Translations under genes and position numbers: made by a program
Shown: piece after piece, positions 3,316 to 21,411 of the stretch
Numbering within the stretch: the stretch's first letter is position 1
How the letters are laid out: each line of letters opens with the position of its first letter
The notes under the pieces: generated by a model
The model's input: only the letters and a program-made list of their open reading frames with translations
Database searches by the model: none
Told to the model about the DNA's origin: nothing
Origin: a virus
Reading direction: 5' to 3' (one strand)
Length of the DNA stretch: 31,596 nucleotides
Virus record (IMG/VR): IMGVR_UViG_3300021960_000313
Span: 1 to 31,596 of that record

Positions 3316-3481
3316 ACTAGCATTAACAGATATGTTAATGAATACTAATCCCTATGATACAGGATTTAAAGAGTTATTAAAAGCAAGTCTTATTGATTCA
3401 AAGAATAAAGAAGGTTATTTGCATTTAAACCTTATAGAGTACTTAGACTTAAAATGTATGTTAGAAGAGATGGAATTATGA
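3299..3481 (+). CDS. Small unknown protein (60 aa)
   Basis: A short helical protein with a Leu-rich C-terminus (LNLIEYLDLKCMLEEMEL). It was not recognised. It overlaps the previous gene by 17 bases and the next by ATGA. It could be a small regulator or partner of the terminase-like protein that follows, but only position suggests that. Confidence 0.5.
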   Translation: MEKETKLALTDMLMNTNPYDTGFKELLKASLIDSKNKEGYLHLNLIEYLDLKCMLEEMEL

Positions 3482-4593
3482 ATAGCTTTAAAGATATTTC
3501 TAATGAAATTAACCCTTCCGAATTAAGACCTGATGAGGGTGGTAAATTTCATTATTGTTATTTAATACGTGCATTAGAAGACGGACCTCACTGCGAAGAA
3601 ACAGGAGAACCAATGAAATATTTTGGTGTTCGGTCTTCAGACGCTATTCCACATCATGATACAAAATATTATGGTAGTGGTAAAAAAATTACAGAAGATA
3701 TTAAAACATATGGTAAATATAATTTTGAAAAATTAATTCTTTCTGTTCATAAGACAAGAAGTGAAGCTATGGAGTATGAAGAATACTTTATGGATCAGCA
3801 TAAATGTGTAGATGAAACTGATTTTTATAATTTGTCTTGGAAATCTACAGGTGGATCCTTTGATTACCATAAGGATTTACGCGATGGTACAACTATTTCT
3901 CCGCAAGTTAAAAATGGAGCACAAAAAGTAGTTATGACTGGAGTAGAGCTTAAAACTTTAGAAGTTGAGCGTGAAAAGAAAAAACAAGAAGCTGCCGAAA
4001 AACGTAAAGCTATTTCTAACGTTACTAAAGAAAAGAAAAAGCTTATTGAAGAAATGCAAAAACAACTTGCAAATTTAGAAAAACAAGAAGAAGAAGAGCG
4101 TAAAGCCGCTGAAAAAGCAAGATTAGAAGCTGAAGCTATTGAAAAAGAAAAGAAAGAATTAGAAAAAGAAGAACGCCGCATAAATCAACAACCCGGTAAA
4201 ACTTATGATGGGGATCCAGATGGCCGTATTGCACATAAAGGACAAATGGGTGGTGCAAGACCTGGAGCAGGAAGACCTAAAGGGTCTAGGAATATTGCTA
4301 CTAAAGCGTCTGTTAGAAAGCTAGAAGAATTAGCTTATGATCCTATTGAGTCTATGCTTGAAAATAGAGCACGTATTGAACAATTACTTGTTGAAACTCG
4401 TAGTATTTCTGCTCAAACTTCTTTGGTTAACTCTTTACATAAAATTGATGAAACGTTAATTAAATATGGATATCGTCCTGTGCCTACAAGAGAAGAACGC
4501 TCTGTTGAGGTAGAAAAGAAAGGTCCAATGAGCATCGTACTTACTAATAGTGATGATAAAACTAAAGAAGAAGATCAACAGGTTAAACATTAA
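3478..4593 (+). CDS. GIY-YIG-like domain fused by a coiled coil to a terminase small-subunit-like domain
   Basis: The start at 3478 gives 371 residues, because it forms ATGA with the upstream stop and has AGAAGAG ahead. Residues 24-120 resemble phage GIY-YIG-like homing endonucleases: YCYLIRA, YFGVRSS (48-54), YYGSGKKI (64-71), a YGKYNF segment (78-83), a Glu-rich helix (96-102) and FYNLS (116-120). Residues about 155-237 are a Lys/Glu-rich coiled coil. Residues 259-272 read GARPGAGRPKGSRN, the N-terminal signature of many phage terminase small subunits, followed by a helical region and an acidic tail. Terminase small subunits bind the packaging site and load the large subunit, encoded downstream at 7622. 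The nuclease-like part may be a captured homing nuclease or may contribute to DNA recognition. The family of the first domain is moderately sure; the fusion is directly visible. Confidence 0.75.
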   Translation: MNSFKDISNEINPSELRPDEGGKFHYCYLIRALEDGPHCEETGEPMKYFGVRSSDAIPHHDTKYYGSGKKITEDIKTYGKYNFEKLILSVHKTRSEAMEYEEYFMDQHKCVDETDFYNLSWKSTGGSFDYHKDLRDGTTISPQVKNGAQKVVMTGVELKTLEVEREKKKQEAAEKRKAISNVTKEKKKLIEEMQKQLANLEKQEEEERKAAEKARLEAEAIEKEKKELEKEERRINQQPGKTYDGDPDGRIAHKGQMGGARPGAGRPKGSRNIATKASVRKLEELAYDPIESMLENRARIEQLLVETRSISAQTSLVNSLHKIDETLIKYGYRPVPTREERSVEVEKKGPMSIVLTNSDDKTKEEDQQVKH

Positions 4594-4599
4594 AATGTA

Positions 4600-5211
4600 A
4601 TGAAAAATTTAATTATACAGACTTATTATAAAGATGATATACAAAGGAATACGATTAATACGTATAAACAATTTCCTAAACTAGAAAAACTTTCTCAAAA
4701 ATGTTTTAAAATTTATGCAAAAAATATTAATGCAGATTATGAATTCTGCGAAAAGCCAGAGACGCAATTACAAGCTGCAGCTCATTGGTTACGAATGGTT
4801 ATGTTTAATAGACCTGAATACGATAATGTCCTCTATGTGGATTGCGATATTCTTATTAATCGTGCTAGATTAACGGATAATATTTTTGATTATGAAGGTG
4901 TAGGAGTTAACAAAATTCATTTTTATAATTATTCTAAGTATCCTATTTTTAATGCAGGCGTGACTAAATGGACACAAAAAGAATGTCAAATTATGAAAGA
5001 CAAAATAGATGATTACTACCATCCTACACATAATCAAAACGCAATTAATCAGTGTTATCTGGATAATGTTGGTCCTATTCAGTGGTTGCCTTACCGTTTT
5101 AATGTTACTCATAAGCCAACTAATGATATTACTTTTAGGCACTATGCGGGGTCTCATAAAGAAAAACAAAACTTAAAAAAAGATTTAATTTGGAATCAAT
5201 GGAATAAATAA
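4600..5211 (+). CDS. Glycosyltransferase, GT-A type with DxD motif (first copy)
   Basis: The 203-residue product starts KNLIIQTYY, an alpha/beta nucleotide-sugar-binding start. It has NVLYVDCDILI with the DxD motif at D81-C82-D83, which in GT-A enzymes binds the metal and nucleotide-sugar phosphates. PIFNAGVTKW follows, a segment typical of GT8-like enzymes, and the end is RHYAGSHKEK. It is a paralogue of the gene at 6489, sharing the LIxQxYxxxD start, the KLSQK segment, the YVDCDIL core, the N-A-G-V segment and the HxxG tail. It probably transfers a sugar to a phage or host glycan or protein, with the acceptor unknown. It lies directly after the terminase small-subunit-like gene and overlaps the next start as TAATG. 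Confidence 0.8.
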   Translation: MKNLIIQTYYKDDIQRNTINTYKQFPKLEKLSQKCFKIYAKNINADYEFCEKPETQLQAAAHWLRMVMFNRPEYDNVLYVDCDILINRARLTDNIFDYEGVGVNKIHFYNYSKYPIFNAGVTKWTQKECQIMKDKIDDYYHPTHNQNAINQCYLDNVGPIQWLPYRFNVTHKPTNDITFRHYAGSHKEKQNLKKDLIWNQWNK

Positions 5212-5828
5212 TGGTTATGAAGTATTATACTAAAGAAGAATTAAAGGTTTATAATACCTTAGAGGAAGTGTGGACAAAAGTTTATAAAGATAACTTTGAT
5301 TTTGTTACAGGTGGAAATACTAAACATCCAAATGCTACTATTAATCGTAAAAAACATTTTTTAAAATATTTACCTGAAAGGGGTTCTCATCGTGAAGTAG
5401 GAGCTCATCAAGGTCTTAATATTGCTAGAGTATTAATAGATTATAAAGCTAGCTATGTAGATTCTTTTGATATCACTAATAAATACATTAATATTTTAAT
5501 GCCTTACTTTGATGAATATTGTAAAAGAAATAATGTTAAATTAGATTTTGCAGTAACTAGTGGAGAGCCAAAATTAAGTCAAACAGCTAAAATGGTTGAT
5601 ACTGTTTGGATTGATGCTTGTAAAAGAGGTTTTTGGGTACATGCAATGTTAAAAGAATGTGCAAAAACTACACGTTATGCAATAGGTGTAGATGATTTAG
5701 TTTCATCTCAAGATATTTGTAAAGGGGTAGATGCTTTTCTTAAAGAACAAAATGAATGGATTTTAGAGTATGAAGACCGTACTAATTATCCAGGAATTGC
5801 AGTATTGGTGAAAAATGAAAACTTATAA
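5211..5828 (+). CDS. Probable class I SAM-dependent methyltransferase
   Basis: The 205-residue product contains REVGAHQGLNIARVL at residues 61-75, matching the Gly-rich SAM-binding loop (motif I). It is followed by VDSFDITN, where an acidic residue ends the second strand. A later DTVWIDACKRGFW segment resembles the motif IV strand and loop of Methyltransf_24-like enzymes, and VDDLVSSQDI recalls the DDxxxxxD segment of that group. The substrate may be a sugar on the glycan made by the flanking enzymes, which is inference from context. The start shares TAATG with the previous stop, and the end overlaps the next gene by 14 bases. Confidence 0.6.
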   Translation: MVMKYYTKEELKVYNTLEEVWTKVYKDNFDFVTGGNTKHPNATINRKKHFLKYLPERGSHREVGAHQGLNIARVLIDYKASYVDSFDITNKYINILMPYFDEYCKRNNVKLDFAVTSGEPKLSQTAKMVDTVWIDACKRGFWVHAMLKECAKTTRYAIGVDDLVSSQDICKGVDAFLKEQNEWILEYEDRTNYPGIAVLVKNENL

Positions 5829-6489
5829 TGAATGGGTACGATATTATTTAGAGAATGATAAAGATCCAAGAATACCCAAAGTAGTTGATAAAATAGGCTT
5901 AAAGGAATATGCTAAAAGTAAAGGTATTAATACTCCTAAAAATTTAGCTACGCTAGCAGATACTTGCGTTGTAAAAGCTAATAACGATTGCGGAAGTACT
6001 ATAATTATTAAAGATGGCAAAATAATTAAAGGTAACTGGAATAATCTTAATAAGTATAAAGATAAACCTTATGGAGCACATAAAGGTGAGTGGTTTTATG
6101 CTGAAATACCTCATAAAATTTTTTATGAGGAATATTTAGATGATAATATTACAGATTATAAATTTCATTGCCATAAAGGTAAAGTAATGTTTTGTCAAAC
6201 TATTTTTGATAGAAATACAGGACAAACTAAAGAACACCTTAAATTACCTTCTGGTAAGATTTTAAATTATCGTTTAGATGAAAATTTTGTTTTCAGTAAA
6301 GAGCATCAATATCCTACTAATTGGGAAGAGATGTTAAAAGCCGCAGAAATACTATCAGCAGATTGGAATTATGTAAGAGTTGACTTGTATAATGTTAAGA
6401 ATACTGTATATGTAGGTGAATTAACGTTTGCGCCTAGAGCAGGAAGATACAAAGGTAAAGGTCAAGAAAAACTTGGAGCTTATTTTTAA
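5815..6489 (+). CDS. TupA-like ATP-grasp protein
   Basis: The 224-residue protein shows the pattern of the TupA-like ATP-grasp family. There is a VVKANNDCGSTIIIKDGK segment around residue 52 (nucleotide-binding Lys and glycine loop), then FYEEYL, and DYKFHCHKGKVMF around 115-125. RVDLYNVKNTVYVGELTF follows, with D190 and E202 in positions typical of the metal and ATP site. TupA was named for teichuronopeptide synthesis, and relatives sit in capsule and glycan clusters, where they are thought to ligate an amino acid or similar group to a carboxylate. Its position between a methyltransferase and a glycosyltransferase supports a glycan-modification role. A GGTGA site precedes the start. Confidence 0.75.
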   Translation: MKTYNEWVRYYLENDKDPRIPKVVDKIGLKEYAKSKGINTPKNLATLADTCVVKANNDCGSTIIIKDGKIIKGNWNNLNKYKDKPYGAHKGEWFYAEIPHKIFYEEYLDDNITDYKFHCHKGKVMFCQTIFDRNTGQTKEHLKLPSGKILNYRLDENFVFSKEHQYPTNWEEMLKAAEILSADWNYVRVDLYNVKNTVYVGELTFAPRAGRYKGKGQEKLGAYF

Positions 6490-7160
6490 TGAAACAACTT
6501 ATATTTCAGAGTTATCATCCTGCAGATGAATCAGCGTGGAATAAAAAATTAGATTGTTATCGTCCAATAGATGAATTAGCAAAATTATCACAAAAAAGGA
6601 TAAAAGATTATGCCAAGTCAATTGGAGCTGATTATGTACTACTTGATAAACCTAAGTGGAAAGATATTCGAAAACATCCAGCATGGACTCGTTGGGCTAT
6701 GTTTGACTATTGGAATAGTTATGACGAATTGTGCTATGTCGATTGCGATATTCTCCCGACACCCTATGCGTTTGGCAATAGTATATTCGATACAGAAGGT
6801 ACAGCAAAACTTACAGAACGCGAAGACAACTCAAGAGAAGCTTGGCATGTAAATGCTGGTGTTTTTAAAATAAATAAACAAGAAGCTTGTAGGTTATCTA
6901 ATAGTATTCACAATAAACGTTATGTTAAAATGTTAGAACAATCTGGTAAGAACCAAGAAGCTTTTAATGATTGTTGGTATAAAACATTCCGTAAAAAACC
7001 AAAACACTTTGGAACTCGTTGGAATGCTACTAGGCCTTACCATAGAGAAAACACTTACTATTTTCATCATTACATAGGTGCTCAAAAAACGATTACTGGT
7101 AATCAATGGGGTAATCTTTATAGCAACAATATTTATAAATGGAATTTACAACAAACATGA
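6489..7160 (+). CDS. Glycosyltransferase, GT-A type with DxD motif (second copy)
   Basis: The 223-residue product is a paralogue of the gene at 4600. It starts KQLIFQSYHP, has LCYVDCDILPTP with the DxD at D85-C86-D87, then WHVNAGVFKINK and a HHYIGAQK end. The similar architecture with different middle segments suggests that the two enzymes use different donors or acceptors. The protein probably acts with the ATP-grasp and methyltransferase genes in one pathway. Its start forms TAATG with the previous stop and its end forms ATGA with the next start. Confidence 0.8.
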   Translation: MKQLIFQSYHPADESAWNKKLDCYRPIDELAKLSQKRIKDYAKSIGADYVLLDKPKWKDIRKHPAWTRWAMFDYWNSYDELCYVDCDILPTPYAFGNSIFDTEGTAKLTEREDNSREAWHVNAGVFKINKQEACRLSNSIHNKRYVKMLEQSGKNQEAFNDCWYKTFRKKPKHFGTRWNATRPYHRENTYYFHHYIGAQKTITGNQWGNLYSNNIYKWNLQQT

Positions 7161-7426
7161 AGTATACAGAAATATTAAAAAATCCTAGTATTTTATCAAC
7201 TTATACTTTACATTTAAGAGAAGATAAAATTTTACTTAAAAATAAAATTGAAAGTAAACAGTTATATTTAGAGATTGATGTTCCAGACATGGCAATTAAA
7301 GAAGTTTATGCTGATTGTTGGTCTAAAAAATTAGCTAACGCTTTTTTGGAAAGACGTGCAGATATGTGTACTTTAATTGATCCTGGTAATGGAAAGAAAA
7401 TGAAAACAGGATACAAAAGAGTATGA
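7157..7426 (+). CDS. Small unknown protein (89 aa)
   Basis: I chose the ATG at 7157 because it forms ATGA with the preceding stop, as elsewhere in this string. An in-frame ATG at 7139 would add six residues. The protein has a helical start (ILKNPSILSTYTLHLRED), a beta-like core (LYLEIDVPDMAIKEVYADCW) and a basic C-terminus (GNGKKMKTGYKRV). No family was recognised. Its position before the AT-hook protein and terminase might suggest a packaging-related role, but nothing else supports that. Confidence 0.6.
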   Translation: MKYTEILKNPSILSTYTLHLREDKILLKNKIESKQLYLEIDVPDMAIKEVYADCWSKKLANAFLERRADMCTLIDPGNGKKMKTGYKRV

Positions 7427-7644
7427 GTATGAAAAATCAAGCAGGTTACACTACAGTATCTGCCTATATGCATCAAATATTACTAGCTGATTTTGAAAAG
7501 CTTAAAAAAGAAAACGACGCCATAAAGAAAGAATTAGAGGAAACTAAGCTTAAATTGCAAGATGCATTAGTTAATCAAGCACCTCCAAAAAGGCCTCGTG
7601 GAAGACCTAGGAAAGTAGTAGATGGATCAAGTAGTATTACATAA
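7423..7644 (+). CDS. Small coiled-coil protein with C-terminal AT-hook
   Basis: This 73-residue protein has a charged helical region at about residues 23-49 (LADFEKLKKENDAIKKELEE) that should form a coiled coil. It is followed by PPKRPRGRPRKVV, a canonical AT-hook core (RGRPRK) that binds the minor groove of AT-rich DNA. The gene overlaps the terminase large subunit by 23 bases and the previous gene by ATGA. A dimeric DNA binder immediately before terL could be a packaging accessory factor or a second small-subunit-like protein. That is inference, since classical terminase small subunits usually use a helix-turn-helix domain. Confidence 0.7.
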   Translation: MSMKNQAGYTTVSAYMHQILLADFEKLKKENDAIKKELEETKLKLQDALVNQAPPKRPRGRPRKVVDGSSSIT

Positions 7645-8956
7645 AGCTCAAAGTGAAATCTTTAGCAATTTGTTTATAGATAAAACAACACGTTATGCAG
7701 TAGGCGTTTGCACTAGAGGCTTTGGTAAAAGTTATTTAGCCGCAATTTGTGCTATTCAAGCAGTTAGTGAACTTTTAGAATTAGACGAATCTGTTCCTAA
7801 TAAAAACGTAACTTTGTTAGCACCTACTTATCAGCAAGCAGTTGATATTTATTTTCCTTTATTGTGGTATGAATTTGGAATGAAAGATTATGCTAGCACA
7901 GGATCAGCATACTCTGGTAAAATTAGGTTTGAAAATGGCACTGAGCTTCGCCTTATGTCGTATGAATCGGCAGAACGTTTAAGGGGTACTGGCCAGTACT
8001 TTATAGTTTGTGATGAGGTTTCCTCATGGCAACAAAAACCCGGTTTAGAAGAAACTTGGAAAGCCACACTTAAACCTTGTATTACTACACGTTGGTCAAG
8101 AGAACAAGCTGCAAAATTTGGAGCACCTTCTCCAGGGAGAGCTTTAATCATTTCAACTCCAATGGGTTATAACTATTTACACGATATGTTTAACATGGAA
8201 CATGTAGATCAAGATTGGAAAGGATATCATTTTACTTATAAAGATGCTCCTCATTTATCACAAATAGAAATAGAGAAAGAAAAATTATTATCAGATCCTT
8301 TAAGATTTGCTAGAGAGTATGAAGCTAGCTTTGAAGATTCTGGAGCTAATGTCTTTTATAATTTTAGAAGAACAGAGCATATAGCAGAAGATATCCCTTA
8401 TTTTGGTGATGAAGAAGATGTTCATGTTGCAATTGATTTTAACGTAGGTGTTATGGCTTGGTCTGCTTTTGCTAAAAGAGGAGATCAAATACATTTTCTT
8501 ATTGATGGAAAAGGAGCTCCTGATACTACACAACTTTCAAAAATGTTAAAATCTAGATTTTATGGACATCGTATATATGCTTATCCTGACCCTTCAGGTA
8601 GAGCTAGAAAAACTTCTGCAGCAGCAGGTATTACTGATTTTAAAATTTTAGAATCAGAAGGTATTACTTGTAGGGCTAGACGAAAAGCCCCACCTATCGC
8701 AGACTCTGTACAAGCAGTAAATCTTATGCTTAAGAATGCTGCTGGTCAAATTCGTATGTATTTTAGACCAGAGTGTCAAAATACAATTAAATCAATGGAA
8801 ACTACTGTTTGGAAAGAAGGTTCTATCGATAGTGCGCAAATCGATAAAACTATGGGAGCAGAACATCATTCTGATGGTGTACGCTATGCTACTGAGTATT
8901 TGTTTCCAGTTCAAGCGGGTGGTAAAAAAGTCATTCGTAATACAATGACATTCTAA
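7622..8956 (+). CDS. terL: Terminase large subunit (packaging ATPase and nuclease)
   Basis: At 444 residues this is the expected size for a siphovirus TerL. The ATPase domain has a Walker A-like motif TRGFGKS (31-37, K36), an adenine-site-like Q in HKAQ near the N-terminus, and Walker B YFIVCDEVSS with D131-E132. A short coupling-like motif, ISTP, lies near residue 178. The RNase H-like nuclease domain carries three acidic positions: D272 (VAIDFNVG), D323 (YPDPSG) and D418 (HHSDGVRY). The enzyme cuts concatemeric DNA and pumps it through the portal encoded next. An AGGAAAG ribosome site lies inside the preceding gene. All key residues appear intact. Confidence 0.93.
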   Translation: MDQVVLHKAQSEIFSNLFIDKTTRYAVGVCTRGFGKSYLAAICAIQAVSELLELDESVPNKNVTLLAPTYQQAVDIYFPLLWYEFGMKDYASTGSAYSGKIRFENGTELRLMSYESAERLRGTGQYFIVCDEVSSWQQKPGLEETWKATLKPCITTRWSREQAAKFGAPSPGRALIISTPMGYNYLHDMFNMEHVDQDWKGYHFTYKDAPHLSQIEIEKEKLLSDPLRFAREYEASFEDSGANVFYNFRRTEHIAEDIPYFGDEEDVHVAIDFNVGVMAWSAFAKRGDQIHFLIDGKGAPDTTQLSKMLKSRFYGHRIYAYPDPSGRARKTSAAAGITDFKILESEGITCRARRKAPPIADSVQAVNLMLKNAAGQIRMYFRPECQNTIKSMETTVWKEGSIDSAQIDKTMGAEHHSDGVRYATEYLFPVQAGGKKVIRNTMTF

Positions 8957-10774: not shown

Positions 10775-13700
10775 ATGTCAATTAATACAACTCTTTATGA
10801 TAATGCAATTCAAAATGCAGCAGAAATTCGTATTGCAGAAGAAGAATTATTTACGCAATTAGACAGGCTTAATCGTGATCATCAAAGCCGACTAACTAAG
10901 TTAATTGCTCGTAACTCTTCTGAAACAGATTTATTAAAAGAAGTAAATCGTTATAAAAGTATTTCTAAAAATACTATTGAAAGTGCTTTAGATAACTTAG
11001 GAGTTAAAGAATTATCTTTTCAAAAAAATACTATTTCTAATGCTTCTAAAAGTTTTTATAAATTAAAAGATGTTTCTAGAGAAGGTTTTTTAAATTCTAT
11101 TAAAAATACTCCTATTAGAGGAAACAAAAATTTAACTCAACAAGTTAATGGTATTTTTAGTAAGCAAGAAGAAAGAGTTAAAAGTGTTTTAACAAAAAAC
11201 ATTTCGTCAAAATCACAACTTACTGCTGAAATTAAAAACACTAGTAATCTAACTAGAGCCCAAAGTCATACTTTATTTGCAACTTCTAGTACTCAAAGCC
11301 AATCCGAAGCTTTTACTAAAACAATGGAAGCAAACAAAGATATTATTAAAGGCTATAGATTTACAGCAGTTTTAGATTCTAGGACTTCGGATATCTGCCA
11401 ACACCATGATGGAGAAATTTATCCTGTTGACGATCCAAAATTTATACCACCTTTACATTGGAATTGTCGTTCTGTTTTAGTTCCTGTTCTAAAATCACAT
11501 AGCGAATTAATTGGAACTGATAGTAATAGAATTATTTACTCTGTTTTAGAAAAAATGAATGTAAGTTCTATTTCTAGATTAGATGGTTTAAATCCTAAAT
11601 TAGAAACTTATGATGTTTGGTTGCGTAGACAGCCTTCAGAAGTTCAATTAAAACACTTAGGTAATAATTTAGAAAGGCTTGCTTTATTTCAAAATGGTAA
11701 CTTACATCTTAAAGATTTTCAGTCTGCTAGGGGAACTAATATTAGTGCAGAAGTTCTTGCACGTAAAGCACAAGAAGGCCTTTTTGATACACCTATTAGA
11801 ACAACTAAATATCAACCCGCAGTTAATTCAGAATTTAAAGTTGATGCTTATAAAGTTGAAAACCTAATAAAAGATAAAAAAGCTCAAAATCAGTTAAAAG
11901 AGTTATTTGAAATTGATGAAAGACATAGCATTTCTCCTTTATCTACTACTGAGTTTAGAGGTGTTACTTCTGAAACCAAAAGACAAAATAGATTTAAGTC
12001 AAAAACAGTAGCAGATGAAGATCTAATTATGGATCCAGTAACAGGAATTGTTAGAAATCCTTTAATTTACAAGCCTAATAATTCTTTATTAGAAGAAAGA
12101 CTTACTCTAGTACGAAACTCTAAGATACTAAATAAAGAACAAAAAGAGTTTATTGAGAATTTTGTAAATTCAATGGAAGATAGAGTAAGTACTAACAATA
12201 GATCTGTTATTACTGAAAATTTGCGTGTTGTTTTTGAACGTCAATTAAATGTTGATTCTCCTAGTTATAATAAACCCTGGGAAAATTTAACCGCAGTCAT
12301 AAGAGCAGAAAATGTTAATGCTGTGCAAAACGTTTCTAGACGATTAGAAAGAACTTATAGAAAAGATCTTAAGCATATGGTAATTGCTAACGTTAGCGGA
12401 GACGCTGATGTTATGCCTTCTGTTAATATTTTTGGAAATATAAGAACTTTTGATCAAATAGAAAATAGTATTGCGTCTAATCAAAGATTTGTAGATGATT
12501 GGATTGATCGTAAAGGCTTAAAAATGGCTACTAAAGTTTATTTTAGTGGAAAAGCACCTTTAAGAAATTATTTTTTACCACCTTCTCAAATTAATCCTTT
12601 AGATTTTAAAAAAAGAATTATAAAAGCTTATGATGAAGCAATTGATACTATAAATGTTCCAGCAAGGTTAAAAAAATATCTTAAACAACAAATTGAGTTT
12701 TGGACACAAAATCCAATTACTGTTGCAGAAAATGCATTAATTGACTTTGCAAGAGAATTAAATGTTAAATGGTATCAATTAGTAGAACTAGAATTTTTTT
12801 ATCGATTAGTTAATATAAATATTAGAAAATCTGTTGTTAACAATTCACCAGATATTGTTAAAGTAAATACCAGAGCAATTGCAAAAGGCTTAAAAGCTTT
12901 AGCAGATGGTTCTACTTTAGACTATGATACGCTTGCTATTAATGTAGGTAAAGCTTTATATGCCGAATCAAAAATAGATTTACCTTGGAGAAAACCTACT
13001 TTAAAAGATTATCATAAAAATGGATCTCGTATATTAGCAGATTTAGAAAAACAAGGGCTTATTAAAATTGGTCAAGCTACAGTAACTCGTCAAAGTGTCA
13101 TTGATGTTAAAACAGGACGTCCAGACCCTTCAGGTTACAAAGAAGTCCAACAAAGAGAAATAGAAATTTTAGATCCTGATTTGTTTAAGTTACAACAAAT
13201 AAATAGAGAGCTTTATATTGGGCGTAGAATTGGTATTACTCAAAATAAAAATAGATTATATTTAGATCCACCTCAAGAAGGAAAAGGCGCTGCTAATATT
13301 AAATATAAAGATGCGCAAGGAAAAGTTACTAGTGAAAGGGTTATTACTAGATCTGCATCTGCTAAATTAGGAACAGATGAAGATGCTATTGGTAATCAGC
13401 TAGATCGTGATTTTCAAAACCAAACTAACTATGCTAATAGTTTAGAATGGGGCTTAGACAATCAATTTACAGACTTTTTCCAAGATGTAGTTTATTATAC
13501 GCCTAAAGACTTAAAAAGAGTTACAAATGCTCCTAACTTATTTAGAGAAGTAGTTAAACGACGTGGCGAACAAGGTACTATGTTTATGCAATCTATGAAA
13601 TGGCATAGACAAAAAAATACTAATTGGTCTAATATTCATCAATTTGATGGCCGTGGTCGTTTTTATGAACAAGGCTATTTAGCCGCTACTAGAGGTGAAT

Positions 13701-16447
13701 TAGTTCGTCCATTTTTGCACACTACTTTTGATCAAAATGGTAGCAACGCAATTATTATAGAGCTTAAAAAACAATTAGGCGCAACTATTGGAGACAAAAA
13801 TTTAAGCTTATCTACTACTGGTAGGTTTCAAAATTTTGATGACAATATAGAAGATATCTTTGAAATTGGCTCAATTATACAAGGTAAATATAATCAAAAA
13901 CAAAGATCTATTAATGAATTTCTTGAAAATAAGTTAATTGCACATGTTGATGATATTAGTGATGCAGCAGAAATTGGTAAAATTGCTAGATACTCTTTAG
14001 AAATTAAAAGAATTGAAGATCACCTTAATAAATCAAAATTAACTCTTAAATCTAAAAAAATAGAAAAAGGTGTAGTATTCCAAACATGGGATGCGTCTAA
14101 TAAAAAACATAATTTTATTATGCAAAAGTTTAAAACTAGATTATTAGTAGAAAATGATGCATCCGCTTCAGGAGCACAACAAATTGCTTTAGCGTCTGGA
14201 GATAAATTATTAGCAGATGCTTCAAATGTTATCCCTACTCCGCAAAAACAAAGATTATACGATTTAGCAGCACAAGCTACTGTAGCTAATCCAGAGTTTC
14301 AAAAAAGATTTGGACCAGAAGGTTTAAATCTTGGTCTTGACTGGGAAGACCTGCAAAAAGGAGCTAAAGCTCAGAACATGGTAACTTTTTATGGTGCAGG
14401 AGAAGCTACTAAAACTTTAAGCATTGAATCTAAATTTGCTAAAGTTCTTACAAAAAATGAACAAAATATTGTTGTTTACTCTGATAAAGCACCTGATGTA
14501 CCTAATGCTTTTTCTCAAAAAGAATTATATAGTGCAATTGAAACTAATATAAATGATGCAGAAGCTAGAGGTTTAACCAATACTGTAATTGGTTTAAAAC
14601 AGGTAAGAGATGAGTTAGATCAAGTTTTAAAAAAAGAAATTTCTATTGGCGATCATTTGTTAAGATATGCTAGTGAAAAAGATGATGTTGTAACTGAATT
14701 TGTTATGAAATCTACTAACACTAGAGCTAAACTTATTACACCAAAAGATTTTGAGTTTATTAACCGAGTAATGTCTGAAGAGTTAAGTAAAATTGCGCCT
14801 TCTACTGAAAGATTTATTACTTTTTGGAAAGCAGCAGCAAGAACTTATGTAAATGTTTCAGGCACCGTAGATATTCCTTGGGTTAACTATAGAGGAAAAC
14901 AATTTACTCAGTTTTATAGACCTATATCCGAAGATTCTATTAGCTTTAAAGATCCTATAACGGGTAAAATAATTTCAAATAGTTATCGCAATTCAGTAGA
15001 TGATGGTTTATTAAGATCTTCTGGTTCTGCGGGAGATGCTCAAACAGGGTTGGGTGTTAATGGAAACCATTCTAATGATGCTAGTTTAGTTCAAGGTTAT
15101 TGGTTAAAAGCAAAATCAGAAAAGAAAAGAGTTGCTACTATCCATGATGGGTTTTTCTCACCTATTGAAGATGCAGATTGGACAATTGATACTCTTTATA
15201 ACTTAATGGGTGATGCTGTAGAAAGTAACTCTATTAAAAAAACTTTAATTTCTATGAGAGATTTTGCAAAAACTAATGTTAATCGGGAAACACGTAGAGA
15301 GCAAGCAAAAATACTAGACTCTTTACTGGATAAAGCAGAAGCTAATATATTAACTCGTGAAGATATCTCTAATGCTTTTAAAACACTTCCCGGTTTAAGA
15401 GAGTATATTAAAAAACAAGCTAAACTAACTGACTATGAGTTAAATAAAAAATTAGGTAATGCTCAAAAACAAGCTATACTTAATGATTTAGCTAGTAATG
15501 TAACTGATGAATTTTACTCTGTCAAAACGTTAAAAGATAGTATGTCTGATATACTTCTTTTAGAAAAAACTTTAAATAAAGAGTTTAATTTAAGTACAAA
15601 TCAAATTTTAAATCAATATGCAAAACATGGGACTAAAAGAAGACTTCTAATTACTCAAAATAAATACAAAGAAGGAACTTTAAATAATGGTTTATTTTTT
15701 AATCAATATTTTAAAGAACCTGCTTTAACTCCACAAGAAACTTCAAAATATAGAGATGCTGTTAAAAAAGCAACAGCTCAAAAAAAAGCTATTCCTTATG
15801 TTGCAGAAGTCCTAGGTAAAAAACCTACTCAAAATGAGCTTCTTCGTAAACAATATAACGTAAGCAATCTTAAAAATTTAGAAGATAAAATTAAAAGTGG
15901 AAATTTTACTTTTGAAAATTTTTTTAAAAATGAATTAATAAAAACTGAAAATCCTTTAGATTTAAAAGTTTTAAAAGAAGTTATTAAAAATGTAAGTAAT
16001 TCTCAAAACCCAGACATTAATATTACAGATATTATTGCTAGTGTAAAAAGCTATCGTGGAAATCTTAGAAGTGTACAAAGAAAACAACTTAAAGAAATAG
16101 ATAGCTGGTATGAAAGCATGTTAGCCGAAGCTACCCGTGCACAATTAATTGACAAAAATAAAACAAATAAATTAATATTACAAAAAGTAGATAATTGGCA
16201 AACTAGTCTAAATCTTAAAAAATTTAATTATAAACAATTACCATCTTTTTATAGAGATTGGTCAGAGGATTTAGAAAAATATTTTGGTATTAAAAGTCTA
16301 GCAGAATTAAATATTAAATATAGATCAGGTAATTTTGATATTGAAGATTTTATTCGAATTCAAGATAATCGTTATCGTGAATTAAAAAAATCAGATATTA
16401 TTAAAAAACCTTTAGAAAATGAAGATAGGTATGGAATCGGGCCGTAA
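10775..16447 (+). CDS. Giant minor head protein (MuF/SPP1 gp7-like) fused to a single-subunit RNA polymerase
   Basis: The 1890-residue protein starts as a MuF-like minor head protein: LDSRTSDIC at 200-208, a DGEIYP turn (212-217), PPLHWNCRS at 225-233, and a WLRRQPSEVQ...LG segment near 280. After an unassigned 600-residue region it shows all hallmark motifs of the T7/N4 single-subunit RNA polymerase family: D958-GRG-R962 (T7 DWRGR); motif A DASASGAQQ with D1128 (T7 DGSCSGIQH, D537); motif B K1198-AQN-M1202-VTF-Y1206-G with exactly the T7 K631/M635/Y639 spacing; NGNHSNDAS at 1429-1437 (T7 NFVHSQDGS); and motif C HDGF with D1458 (T7 HDSF, D812). The three active-site spacings are closer to N4 virion polymerase than to T7 in the long B-to-C gap. 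Residues about 1560-1890 are Lys/Asn-rich and contain a duplicated 24-residue motif. MuF proteins are head-packaged, so the polymerase is probably delivered with the DNA, which is inference. AGGAG precedes the start. Confidence 0.9.
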   Translation: MSINTTLYDNAIQNAAEIRIAEEELFTQLDRLNRDHQSRLTKLIARNSSETDLLKEVNRYKSISKNTIESALDNLGVKELSFQKNTISNASKSFYKLKDVSREGFLNSIKNTPIRGNKNLTQQVNGIFSKQEERVKSVLTKNISSKSQLTAEIKNTSNLTRAQSHTLFATSSTQSQSEAFTKTMEANKDIIKGYRFTAVLDSRTSDICQHHDGEIYPVDDPKFIPPLHWNCRSVLVPVLKSHSELIGTDSNRIIYSVLEKMNVSSISRLDGLNPKLETYDVWLRRQPSEVQLKHLGNNLERLALFQNGNLHLKDFQSARGTNISAEVLARKAQEGLFDTPIRTTKYQPAVNSEFKVDAYKVENLIKDKKAQNQLKELFEIDERHSISPLSTTEFRGVTSETKRQNRFKSKTVADEDLIMDPVTGIVRNPLIYKPNNSLLEERLTLVRNSKILNKEQKEFIENFVNSMEDRVSTNNRSVITENLRVVFERQLNVDSPSYNKPWENLTAVIRAENVNAVQNVSRRLERTYRKDLKHMVIANVSGDADVMPSVNIFGNIRTFDQIENSIASNQRFVDDWIDRKGLKMATKVYFSGKAPLRNYFLPPSQINPLDFKKRIIKAYDEAIDTINVPARLKKYLKQQIEFWTQNPITVAENALIDFARELNVKWYQLVELEFFYRLVNINIRKSVVNNSPDIVKVNTRAIAKGLKALADGSTLDYDTLAINVGKALYAESKIDLPWRKPTLKDYHKNGSRILADLEKQGLIKIGQATVTRQSVIDVKTGRPDPSGYKEVQQREIEILDPDLFKLQQINRELYIGRRIGITQNKNRLYLDPPQEGKGAANIKYKDAQGKVTSERVITRSASAKLGTDEDAIGNQLDRDFQNQTNYANSLEWGLDNQFTDFFQDVVYYTPKDLKRVTNAPNLFREVVKRRGEQGTMFMQSMKWHRQKNTNWSNIHQFDGRGRFYEQGYLAATRGELVRPFLHTTFDQNGSNAIIIELKKQLGATIGDKNLSLSTTGRFQNFDDNIEDIFEIGSIIQGKYNQKQRSINEFLENKLIAHVDDISDAAEIGKIARYSLEIKRIEDHLNKSKLTLKSKKIEKGVVFQTWDASNKKHNFIMQKFKTRLLVENDASASGAQQIALASGDKLLADASNVIPTPQKQRLYDLAAQATVANPEFQKRFGPEGLNLGLDWEDLQKGAKAQNMVTFYGAGEATKTLSIESKFAKVLTKNEQNIVVYSDKAPDVPNAFSQKELYSAIETNINDAEARGLTNTVIGLKQVRDELDQVLKKEISIGDHLLRYASEKDDVVTEFVMKSTNTRAKLITPKDFEFINRVMSEELSKIAPSTERFITFWKAAARTYVNVSGTVDIPWVNYRGKQFTQFYRPISEDSISFKDPITGKIISNSYRNSVDDGLLRSSGSAGDAQTGLGVNGNHSNDASLVQGYWLKAKSEKKRVATIHDGFFSPIEDADWTIDTLYNLMGDAVESNSIKKTLISMRDFAKTNVNRETRREQAKILDSLLDKAEANILTREDISNAFKTLPGLREYIKKQAKLTDYELNKKLGNAQKQAILNDLASNVTDEFYSVKTLKDSMSDILLLEKTLNKEFNLSTNQILNQYAKHGTKRRLLITQNKYKEGTLNNGLFFNQYFKEPALTPQETSKYRDAVKKATAQKKAIPYVAEVLGKKPTQNELLRKQYNVSNLKNLEDKIKSGNFTFENFFKNELIKTENPLDLKVLKEVIKNVSNSQNPDINITDIIASVKSYRGNLRSVQRKQLKEIDSWYESMLAEATRAQLIDKNKTNKLILQKVDNWQTSLNLKKFNYKQLPSFYRDWSEDLEKYFGIKSLAELNIKYRSGNFDIEDFIRIQDNRYRELKKSDIIKKPLENEDRYGIGP
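15854..15925 (+). repeat. C-terminal motif, copy 1, inside the giant protein
   Basis: This encodes residues 1694-1717, with the pattern (Y/F)x(V/I)xxLxxLxxKx(K/R)SGNFx(F/I)E(N/D)F. It matches a second copy 143 residues later. It is a protein-level duplication in the extension beyond the polymerase core, possibly a small binding or oligomerisation module. Confidence 0.55.
16283..16354 (+). repeat. C-terminal motif, copy 2, inside the giant protein
   Basis: This encodes residues 1837-1860 and shares L-x-x-L, K-x-(K/R)-SGNF and E-(N/D)-F with copy 1 at identical spacing. Both copies lie within the last 200 residues. Confidence 0.55.
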
Positions 16448-20972: not shown

Positions 20973-21124
20973 TGCCAGGTAAGAAAAAAGGTTTGTGGGC
21001 TAATATACACGCAAAAAGGAAAAGAATTAAAACGGGATCTAAAGAAAGAATGAGATATCCAGGTTCAAAGGGAGCTCCTACAGCTAAGGCTTTAAAAGAA
21101 TCCTCTAAAAAAGGTAAAAAATAA
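20972..21124 (+). CDS. Tiny highly basic protein (50 aa)
   Basis: The Lys/Arg-rich product contains LWANIHAKRKRIKTGSKERM and RYPGSKGAPTAKALK. I associate the KRxxxGSKERMRxPGSKGAPTxKAL pattern with conserved small proteins of marine phages, but the function is not known. Such a strong positive charge suits nucleic-acid binding or a virion-associated peptide. It is overlapped one base at each end by its neighbours (ATGA before, TAATG after). Confidence 0.65.
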   Translation: MPGKKKGLWANIHAKRKRIKTGSKERMRYPGSKGAPTAKALKESSKKGKK

Positions 21125-21411
21125 TGGCTAAAGAAAAAGATCCAAGACTTGAAAGAGCAGGAGTTAGCGGATACAATAAACCTAAAAGAACACCTAATCA
21201 CCCCCGAAAATCTCATGTTGTTGTAGCTAAAGTAGGCGACAAAGTTAAACTTATCAGGTTTGGTCAACAAGGAGTAAAAGGTGCAGGTTCAAATCCAAAA
21301 TCGGATAAAGAAAAAGCACGTAAAAAAAGTTATTATGCTAGGCATAATGCACAAGATTCAAAACCATCTAAATTATCACCTCGATATTGGTCGCATAAAG
21401 TTAAATGGTAA
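21124..21411 (+). CDS. DUF6321-like basic protein (95 aa)
   Basis: The pattern KDPRLERAGVSGYNKPKRTP, then HPRKSHVVVAKVGDKVKLIRFGQQGVKGAG and PRYWSHKVKW matches what I know as DUF6321, a small basic domain common in marine phages. A beta hairpin core is flanked by basic disordered segments. The function is unknown. The KxIRFGQQGV motif is the most constant part and may form a binding surface. It is the third of three overlapping basic genes. Confidence 0.75.
   Translation: MAKEKDPRLERAGVSGYNKPKRTPNHPRKSHVVVAKVGDKVKLIRFGQQGVKGAGSNPKSDKEKARKKSYYARHNAQDSKPSKLSPRYWSHKVKW

Follow-up and report, generated by a model that had tools for sequence, protein, structure and literature searches.

Four overlapping genes just upstream of the large terminase gene in a 31.6-kb IMG/VR phage record, IMGVR_UViG_3300021960_000313 (the whole of which is referred to here as the window), may constitute a translationally coupled cassette that assembles an amide-capped, methylated glycan on a virion protein; taken as a complete statement, this reading is given a probability of roughly 0.45. 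One of the four encodes a TupA-like ATP-grasp ligase belonging to a clade in which only viral sequences were found, and which recurs among head and packaging genes.

Mechanical six-frame ORF calling places all four genes on the + strand. The first, GT1 (4600..5211, 203 aa), encodes a GT8-like glycosyltransferase with a DxD motif; it is followed by a methyltransferase-like gene (5211..5828, 205 aa), the divergent product of which is predicted to be a class I SAM-dependent enzyme, by the TupA-like ATP-grasp amidoligase (5815..6489, 224 aa) and by GT2 (6489..7160, 223 aa), a GT8-like paralogue of GT1. The junctions overlap by 1, 14 and 1 nt, bearing out the original observation that these genes overlap by a few bases, and the set is probably a single tightly packed, translationally coupled cassette. 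Within the first 11 kb, terminator-like sites number five, against 4.8 in shuffled sequences, and promoter-like sites are fewer than in the shuffles (35 against 48.9); hence no clear internal promoter or terminator emerges from these scans. None of the four proteins is hydrophobic enough to suggest a membrane helix (maximum 19-residue Kyte-Doolittle mean of 0.73).

GT2 is overlapped by a gene for a 95-aa protein (7139..7426, + strand) matching no known family in Pfam or PHROGs, in which an internal ATG at position 7157 would give an ATGA overlap. A gene for a 73-aa coiled-coil/AT-hook-like protein (7423..7644, + strand; PF02178 at 0.007, below the cut-off) then directly precedes the large terminase subunit gene, TerL (7622..8956, + strand), the product of which is 55% identical to that of phage DSS3_PM1. 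Beyond TerL are genes for the portal (phrog_145, 1.3e-56), a long head-morphogenesis protein and the major head protein. Elsewhere in the window, a small heat-shock protein, Hsp20, is encoded upstream of the head module (794-1192; phrog_432 1.4e-36, PF00011 1.4e-14). A protein of 1890 aa (10775-16447), 88% conserved in L010, joins a MuF head-morphogenesis domain (PF04233 2.9e-12) to a region resembling T7-type RNA polymerases (phrog_414 2.9e-12; PF00940 4.5e-5, just over the cut-off). It possibly unites a virion RNA polymerase with a head protein in one chain, and sequence searches found no match to it among solved structures.

The cassette had been thought to lie between the genes for the small and large terminase subunits. 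The downstream half of this description holds, TerL being recognised by phrog_2 (2.5e-32), but the upstream gene is no more than a candidate for the small subunit. This candidate (3454..4593, + strand) encodes a GIY-YIG (SegE-type) N-terminus, a coiled coil and a C-terminal part, with matches to PF19835 (1.5e-6), phrog_314 (3.8e-18) and gp008 of the Ruegeria phage DSS3_VP1 (29% over 234 aa, 6e-11). Searches returned GIY-YIG and homing-endonuclease families, weak coiled-coil matches, hypothetical proteins and one family without a known function, and no small terminase family. The C-terminal part of this GIY-YIG fusion matches hypothetical proteins only, the genes of which precede TerL in the Ruegeria phages DSS3_VP1 and DSS3_PM1. 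In DSS3_VP1, the equivalent of the C-terminal part is a stand-alone 209-aa protein before TerL, and TerL itself is split around an endonuclease VII gene. With the 95- and 73-aa genes intervening, the position of the cassette is therefore best described as just upstream of TerL, rather than as within a demonstrated bracket of terminase genes.

The arrangement is not a peculiarity of one assembly. Over the region compared, contig 3300021958_000120 is essentially identical to the window, and the cassette proteins of the two agree at 100%, while a sister phage, IMGVR_UViG_3300017950_000014, has the four genes in the same order and on the same strand with 80-84% amino-acid identity. Between the window and this sister, dN/dS is 0.166, 0.160, 0.115 and 0.141 for the cassette genes, compared with 0.062 for TerL. 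The maintenance of gene order under purifying selection rules out chance or artefact as an explanation of the cassette. The closest TerL relatives in the phage collection are those of DSS3_VP1 and DSS3_PM1, at about 55%; in both phages TerL is preceded by a few small ORFs, and the regions that were compared contain nothing matching the cassette genes. In a tail-fibre-like region of the sister phage there is also a tryptophan halogenase gene (L018 1142-3240, PF04820 9e-106), next to one for a 201-aa protein without a family match.

Phage glycosyltransferases can modify DNA, and are usually explained as acting on either DNA or host lipopolysaccharide. Of the three targets originally proposed for the cassette, namely virion proteins, phage DNA and the host surface, DNA is nevertheless the least favoured, and it is improbable that these enzymes glycosylate and aminoacylate the phage genome. 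Base modification does occur in this neighbourhood, as the related phage DSS3_VP1 has deoxyuridine DNA (abstract of PMC12697855). However, in addition to the lack of cassette-gene matches in the compared regions of DSS3_VP1 and DSS3_PM1, no gene of the thymidylate synthase family (hydroxymethylase, PF00303) is present in 13 records, all of them fragments, comprising the window, two related contigs and ten other ligase-bearing contigs.

The ligase is the cassette protein with the clearest family membership. It matches the TupA profile PF14305 at 1.6e-21, scoring 77.4 bits against a cut-off of 25 and covering profile positions 55-238 of 241, such that the earlier TupA-like ATP-grasp call is upheld and the family assignment, judged from sequence, is solid. 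Across eight viral ligase sequences K54, E105, D114-Y-K116, R133, R188, D190, E202 and T204 are invariant, and they remain so when two distant homologues are added. The N-terminus of the window protein is shorter than that of its relatives, the majority of homologous ORFs having some 250 to 330 aa against its 224 aa.

As predicted, two paralogous DxD glycosyltransferases flank the central pair of genes: GT1 and GT2 are about 32% identical and share an invariant DxD (YVDCDIL) as well as NAGV, Q and HYxG..K motifs. Both are classed as GT8-like, though they fall below the Pfam cut-off, with GT1 reaching an E value of 0.0015 against PF01501 (GT8) and the two proteins scoring 18.6 and 13.4 bits where 24.3 is required. 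This classification draws on a comparison of the window glycosyltransferase profile with the viral protein L113, itself confirmed as GT8 by PF01501 (4.8e-14), which is matched at 2.2e-6 by hmmsearch and at P 1e-5 with 82% probability by hhalign. In the same hhalign comparison a second viral glycosyltransferase family gave 1.2e-3 and the remaining seven families 0.06 or worse. An AlphaFold2 model from the glycosyltransferase alignment, which has just four rows, reached a pLDDT of 32.

The 205-aa protein is probably a class I methyltransferase, as first proposed: the class I motifs can be read in it (EVGAHQG, DSFDI, VWIDAC, IGVDD), and relatives of Methyltransf_24 are the best of nine families by hhalign (P 5e-4; next best 0.018), in a weak match with a probability of 30% that covers the C-terminal part only. 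It finds no family in Pfam or NCBIfam at E values up to 10 and no credible one in PHROGs, and neither patterns, tblastn nor a profile search of neighbouring ORFs detected relatives beyond the sister phage. The AlphaFold2 model from its two-row alignment has a pLDDT of 41, and sequence searches of solved structures with all of the cassette profiles returned nothing usable.

Further ligase loci were sought by searching viral contigs with the ligase alignments, and were compared with 32 bacterial rows, including Pseudomonadota taken from plasmids, in quick trees built without bootstrap. The window ligase falls in a clade of 22 viral and no bacterial rows with an SH-aLRT of 99 (97 in an earlier sample), separate from the homologues of Bacillota, Bacteroidota and Pseudomonadota; this grouping depends on short search patterns, and since the bacterial rows were drawn from plasmids and from searches with different patterns, a member of bacterial origin may have been overlooked. 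Twelve of the 22 rows, a figure that includes the window and its sister, lie in head or packaging modules, in several parts of the tree (the window, L010, L107, L108, L110, L111, L137, L138, L140, L141, L146 and L158). These modules were recognised from PHROGs matches of neighbouring genes to major capsid protein, portal, TerL, MuF, connector or protease, together with BLAST to the proteins so confirmed, and by visual inspection where PHROGs gave no match. Mapping context onto the earlier ligase tree requires at least three changes, which implies that placement in a head module has been gained or lost more than once. Two small genes of the window, at 1418-1867 and 21124-21411, are also found in L107 (7972-8412, 9938-10201) and L112 (1617-2066, 3571-3849), at 42-46% and 64-65% respectively for the two window genes; other phages with a ligase in the head module therefore share or exchange more than the ligase.

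The partners of the ligase vary considerably between these loci. They include GT2, GT8-like and other DxD glycosyltransferases, methyltransferases of the TylF, FkbM and Methyltransf_24 types, a sulfotransferase and epimerases. The four genes of the window are thus found together in one phage group only, and the expectation that they would move as a unit applies within that group and not to the ligase elsewhere, where it has different associates. In L137, the sulfotransferase gene (4780-5367, PF03567 2.6e-7) lies between the ligase and a glycosyltransferase in a head module. The cassettes of L143 and L151 are near DNA-metabolism genes, not head genes. The viral locus L119, outside the clade, encodes a 511-aa ORF beside a tail sheath gene, in which the ligase domain follows a GT-like N-terminus that was read as such without a family match; in joining two such domains it resembles Cj1438 of Campylobacter.

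These varied contexts also bear on whether the cassette instead remodels the host envelope, altering O-antigen or other surface glycans during infection and so stopping superinfection or re-adsorption to debris. The nearest tree neighbours of the window ligase (L106 and L129-L132) lie in sugar clusters, mostly of larger phages, and these, with L136, are accompanied by epimerases, several glycosyltransferases or a TylF methyltransferase; in such clusters modification of the host surface is an equally natural reading. Furthermore, the sugar cluster that precedes a tail fibre gene in S-CAM7 includes a homologue of the window glycosyltransferases, the GT8 genes of pelagimyophages have been interpreted in this manner (PMC7029224), and some bacterial TupA-like ligases adjoin polysaccharide genes. 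Nevertheless, the window cassette is embedded among head and packaging genes, not early or tail-fibre ones, its surroundings yielded no recognisable flippase, polymerase or lipid-linked initiating enzyme, and head modules hold the 12 clade members listed above. Envelope remodelling is accordingly considered unlikely, while keeping a real share of the probability.

Among annotated phages, such ligases are rare. A tblastn search of 50,697 phage records with three clade ligases found no convincing TupA ligase; the matches fell in four unannotated records, two of them short Listeria phage records, and those in MT835502 and MT838506 were set aside given that their neighbours are polysaccharide-synthesis genes. 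The view that an ATP-grasp enzyme of this type is unusual in a phage head module hence holds for annotated phages, but not for metagenomic ones, in which it is recurrent. To judge from titles, abstracts and passages of the open-licence literature, no phage appears to have been described with a TupA-like ligase in its head module.

The scheme we infer extends to the reaction, the order of its steps, late expression, the acceptor and the benefit. GT1 and GT2 would draw on host NDP-sugars as donors, one of them to start the chain and the other to extend it. The ligase would use ATP to activate a carboxylate, most plausibly C6 of a uronic acid within the glycan, and form an amide bond from it to an amino acid or amino alcohol; the capped product would perhaps then be methylated by the methyltransferase-like protein. 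Assembly and amide capping of a glycan, the core of the original prediction, is likely, given the combination of a TupA-like ligase with paralogous DxD glycosyltransferases and the glycan genes beside the ligase in relatives. As a counter-point, none of the genes recognised around the cassette would form a uronic acid, and this substrate would therefore need to be supplied by the host. Because the cassette is in a head and packaging run and related ligases are repeatedly found in head modules, a virion protein is favoured as the acceptor, which would result in surface decoration or shielding; the chances that the virion is the target are put at even.

Sets of ATP-grasp, methyltransferase and glycosyltransferase enzymes also make small molecules. 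A secreted or intracellular metabolite as the product, in place of a surface glycan, would be in keeping with such sets and with the tryptophan halogenase elsewhere in the sister phage, yet is very improbable: the TupA-like ligase of tested function considered here acts on polysaccharide (PMC11800379), and the genes recognised around the cassette include none for export or for a carrier.

The repeated occurrence of a viral branch of amide ligases among head genes, combined with glycan enzymes that are interchangeable, points to the particle itself as the thing modified, and such a modification should be recognisable by a clear chemical mass signature. This would bear on the stability of environmental phages, their avoidance of wrong adsorption and their escape from recognition. 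The recurrence in head-gene clusters of unrelated uncultured phages suggests a little-known chemistry decorating virus particles or hosts. It is put forward tentatively that a phage-specific TupA-like lineage in such phages links amino acids or amines, through amide bonds, to glycans of virion structural proteins, and with the same reserve that this chemistry of virion modification is not described in any phage found.

The best functional precedent is Cj1438 of Campylobacter jejuni, in which a GT2 domain is joined to a TupA-like domain that makes an amide on C6 of glucuronic acid (PMC11800379). In this capsule pathway, as proposed for the window, a TupA-like ATP-grasp enzyme works with a glycosyltransferase on a glycan; the window set differs in being phage-encoded, divided between separate genes, GT8-like rather than GT2 and located in a head gene run; the Cj1438 sequence is not among the tree rows. 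Bacterial TupA-like amidoligases in general share the Pfam family, the conserved ATP-grasp residues and often a glycan-gene context with the window ligase, from which they are separated by identities below about 40%, a distinct clade and its shorter N-terminus. Mycobacteriophage capsids and tail tubes carry glycans, according to the parts of the reports drawn on here (PMC12619734, PMC11256854), and in Che8-type phages, as is envisaged for the window, phage glycosyltransferases are thought to decorate structural proteins. In those same parts, glycosylation is shown for Che8, whereas the window is known from its genes alone, no TupA-like ligase is mentioned, and the glycosyltransferases of Maravista are near the 3' end of the genome rather than among head genes. 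Finally, the sugar clusters of cyanophages and pelagimyophages likewise combine glycosyltransferases with methyltransferases, and S-CAM7 has a related glycosyltransferase; these clusters usually occupy tail-fibre or hypervariable parts of large myovirus genomes, accompanied by nucleotide-sugar genes, in contrast to the compact four-gene set beside TerL in the window.
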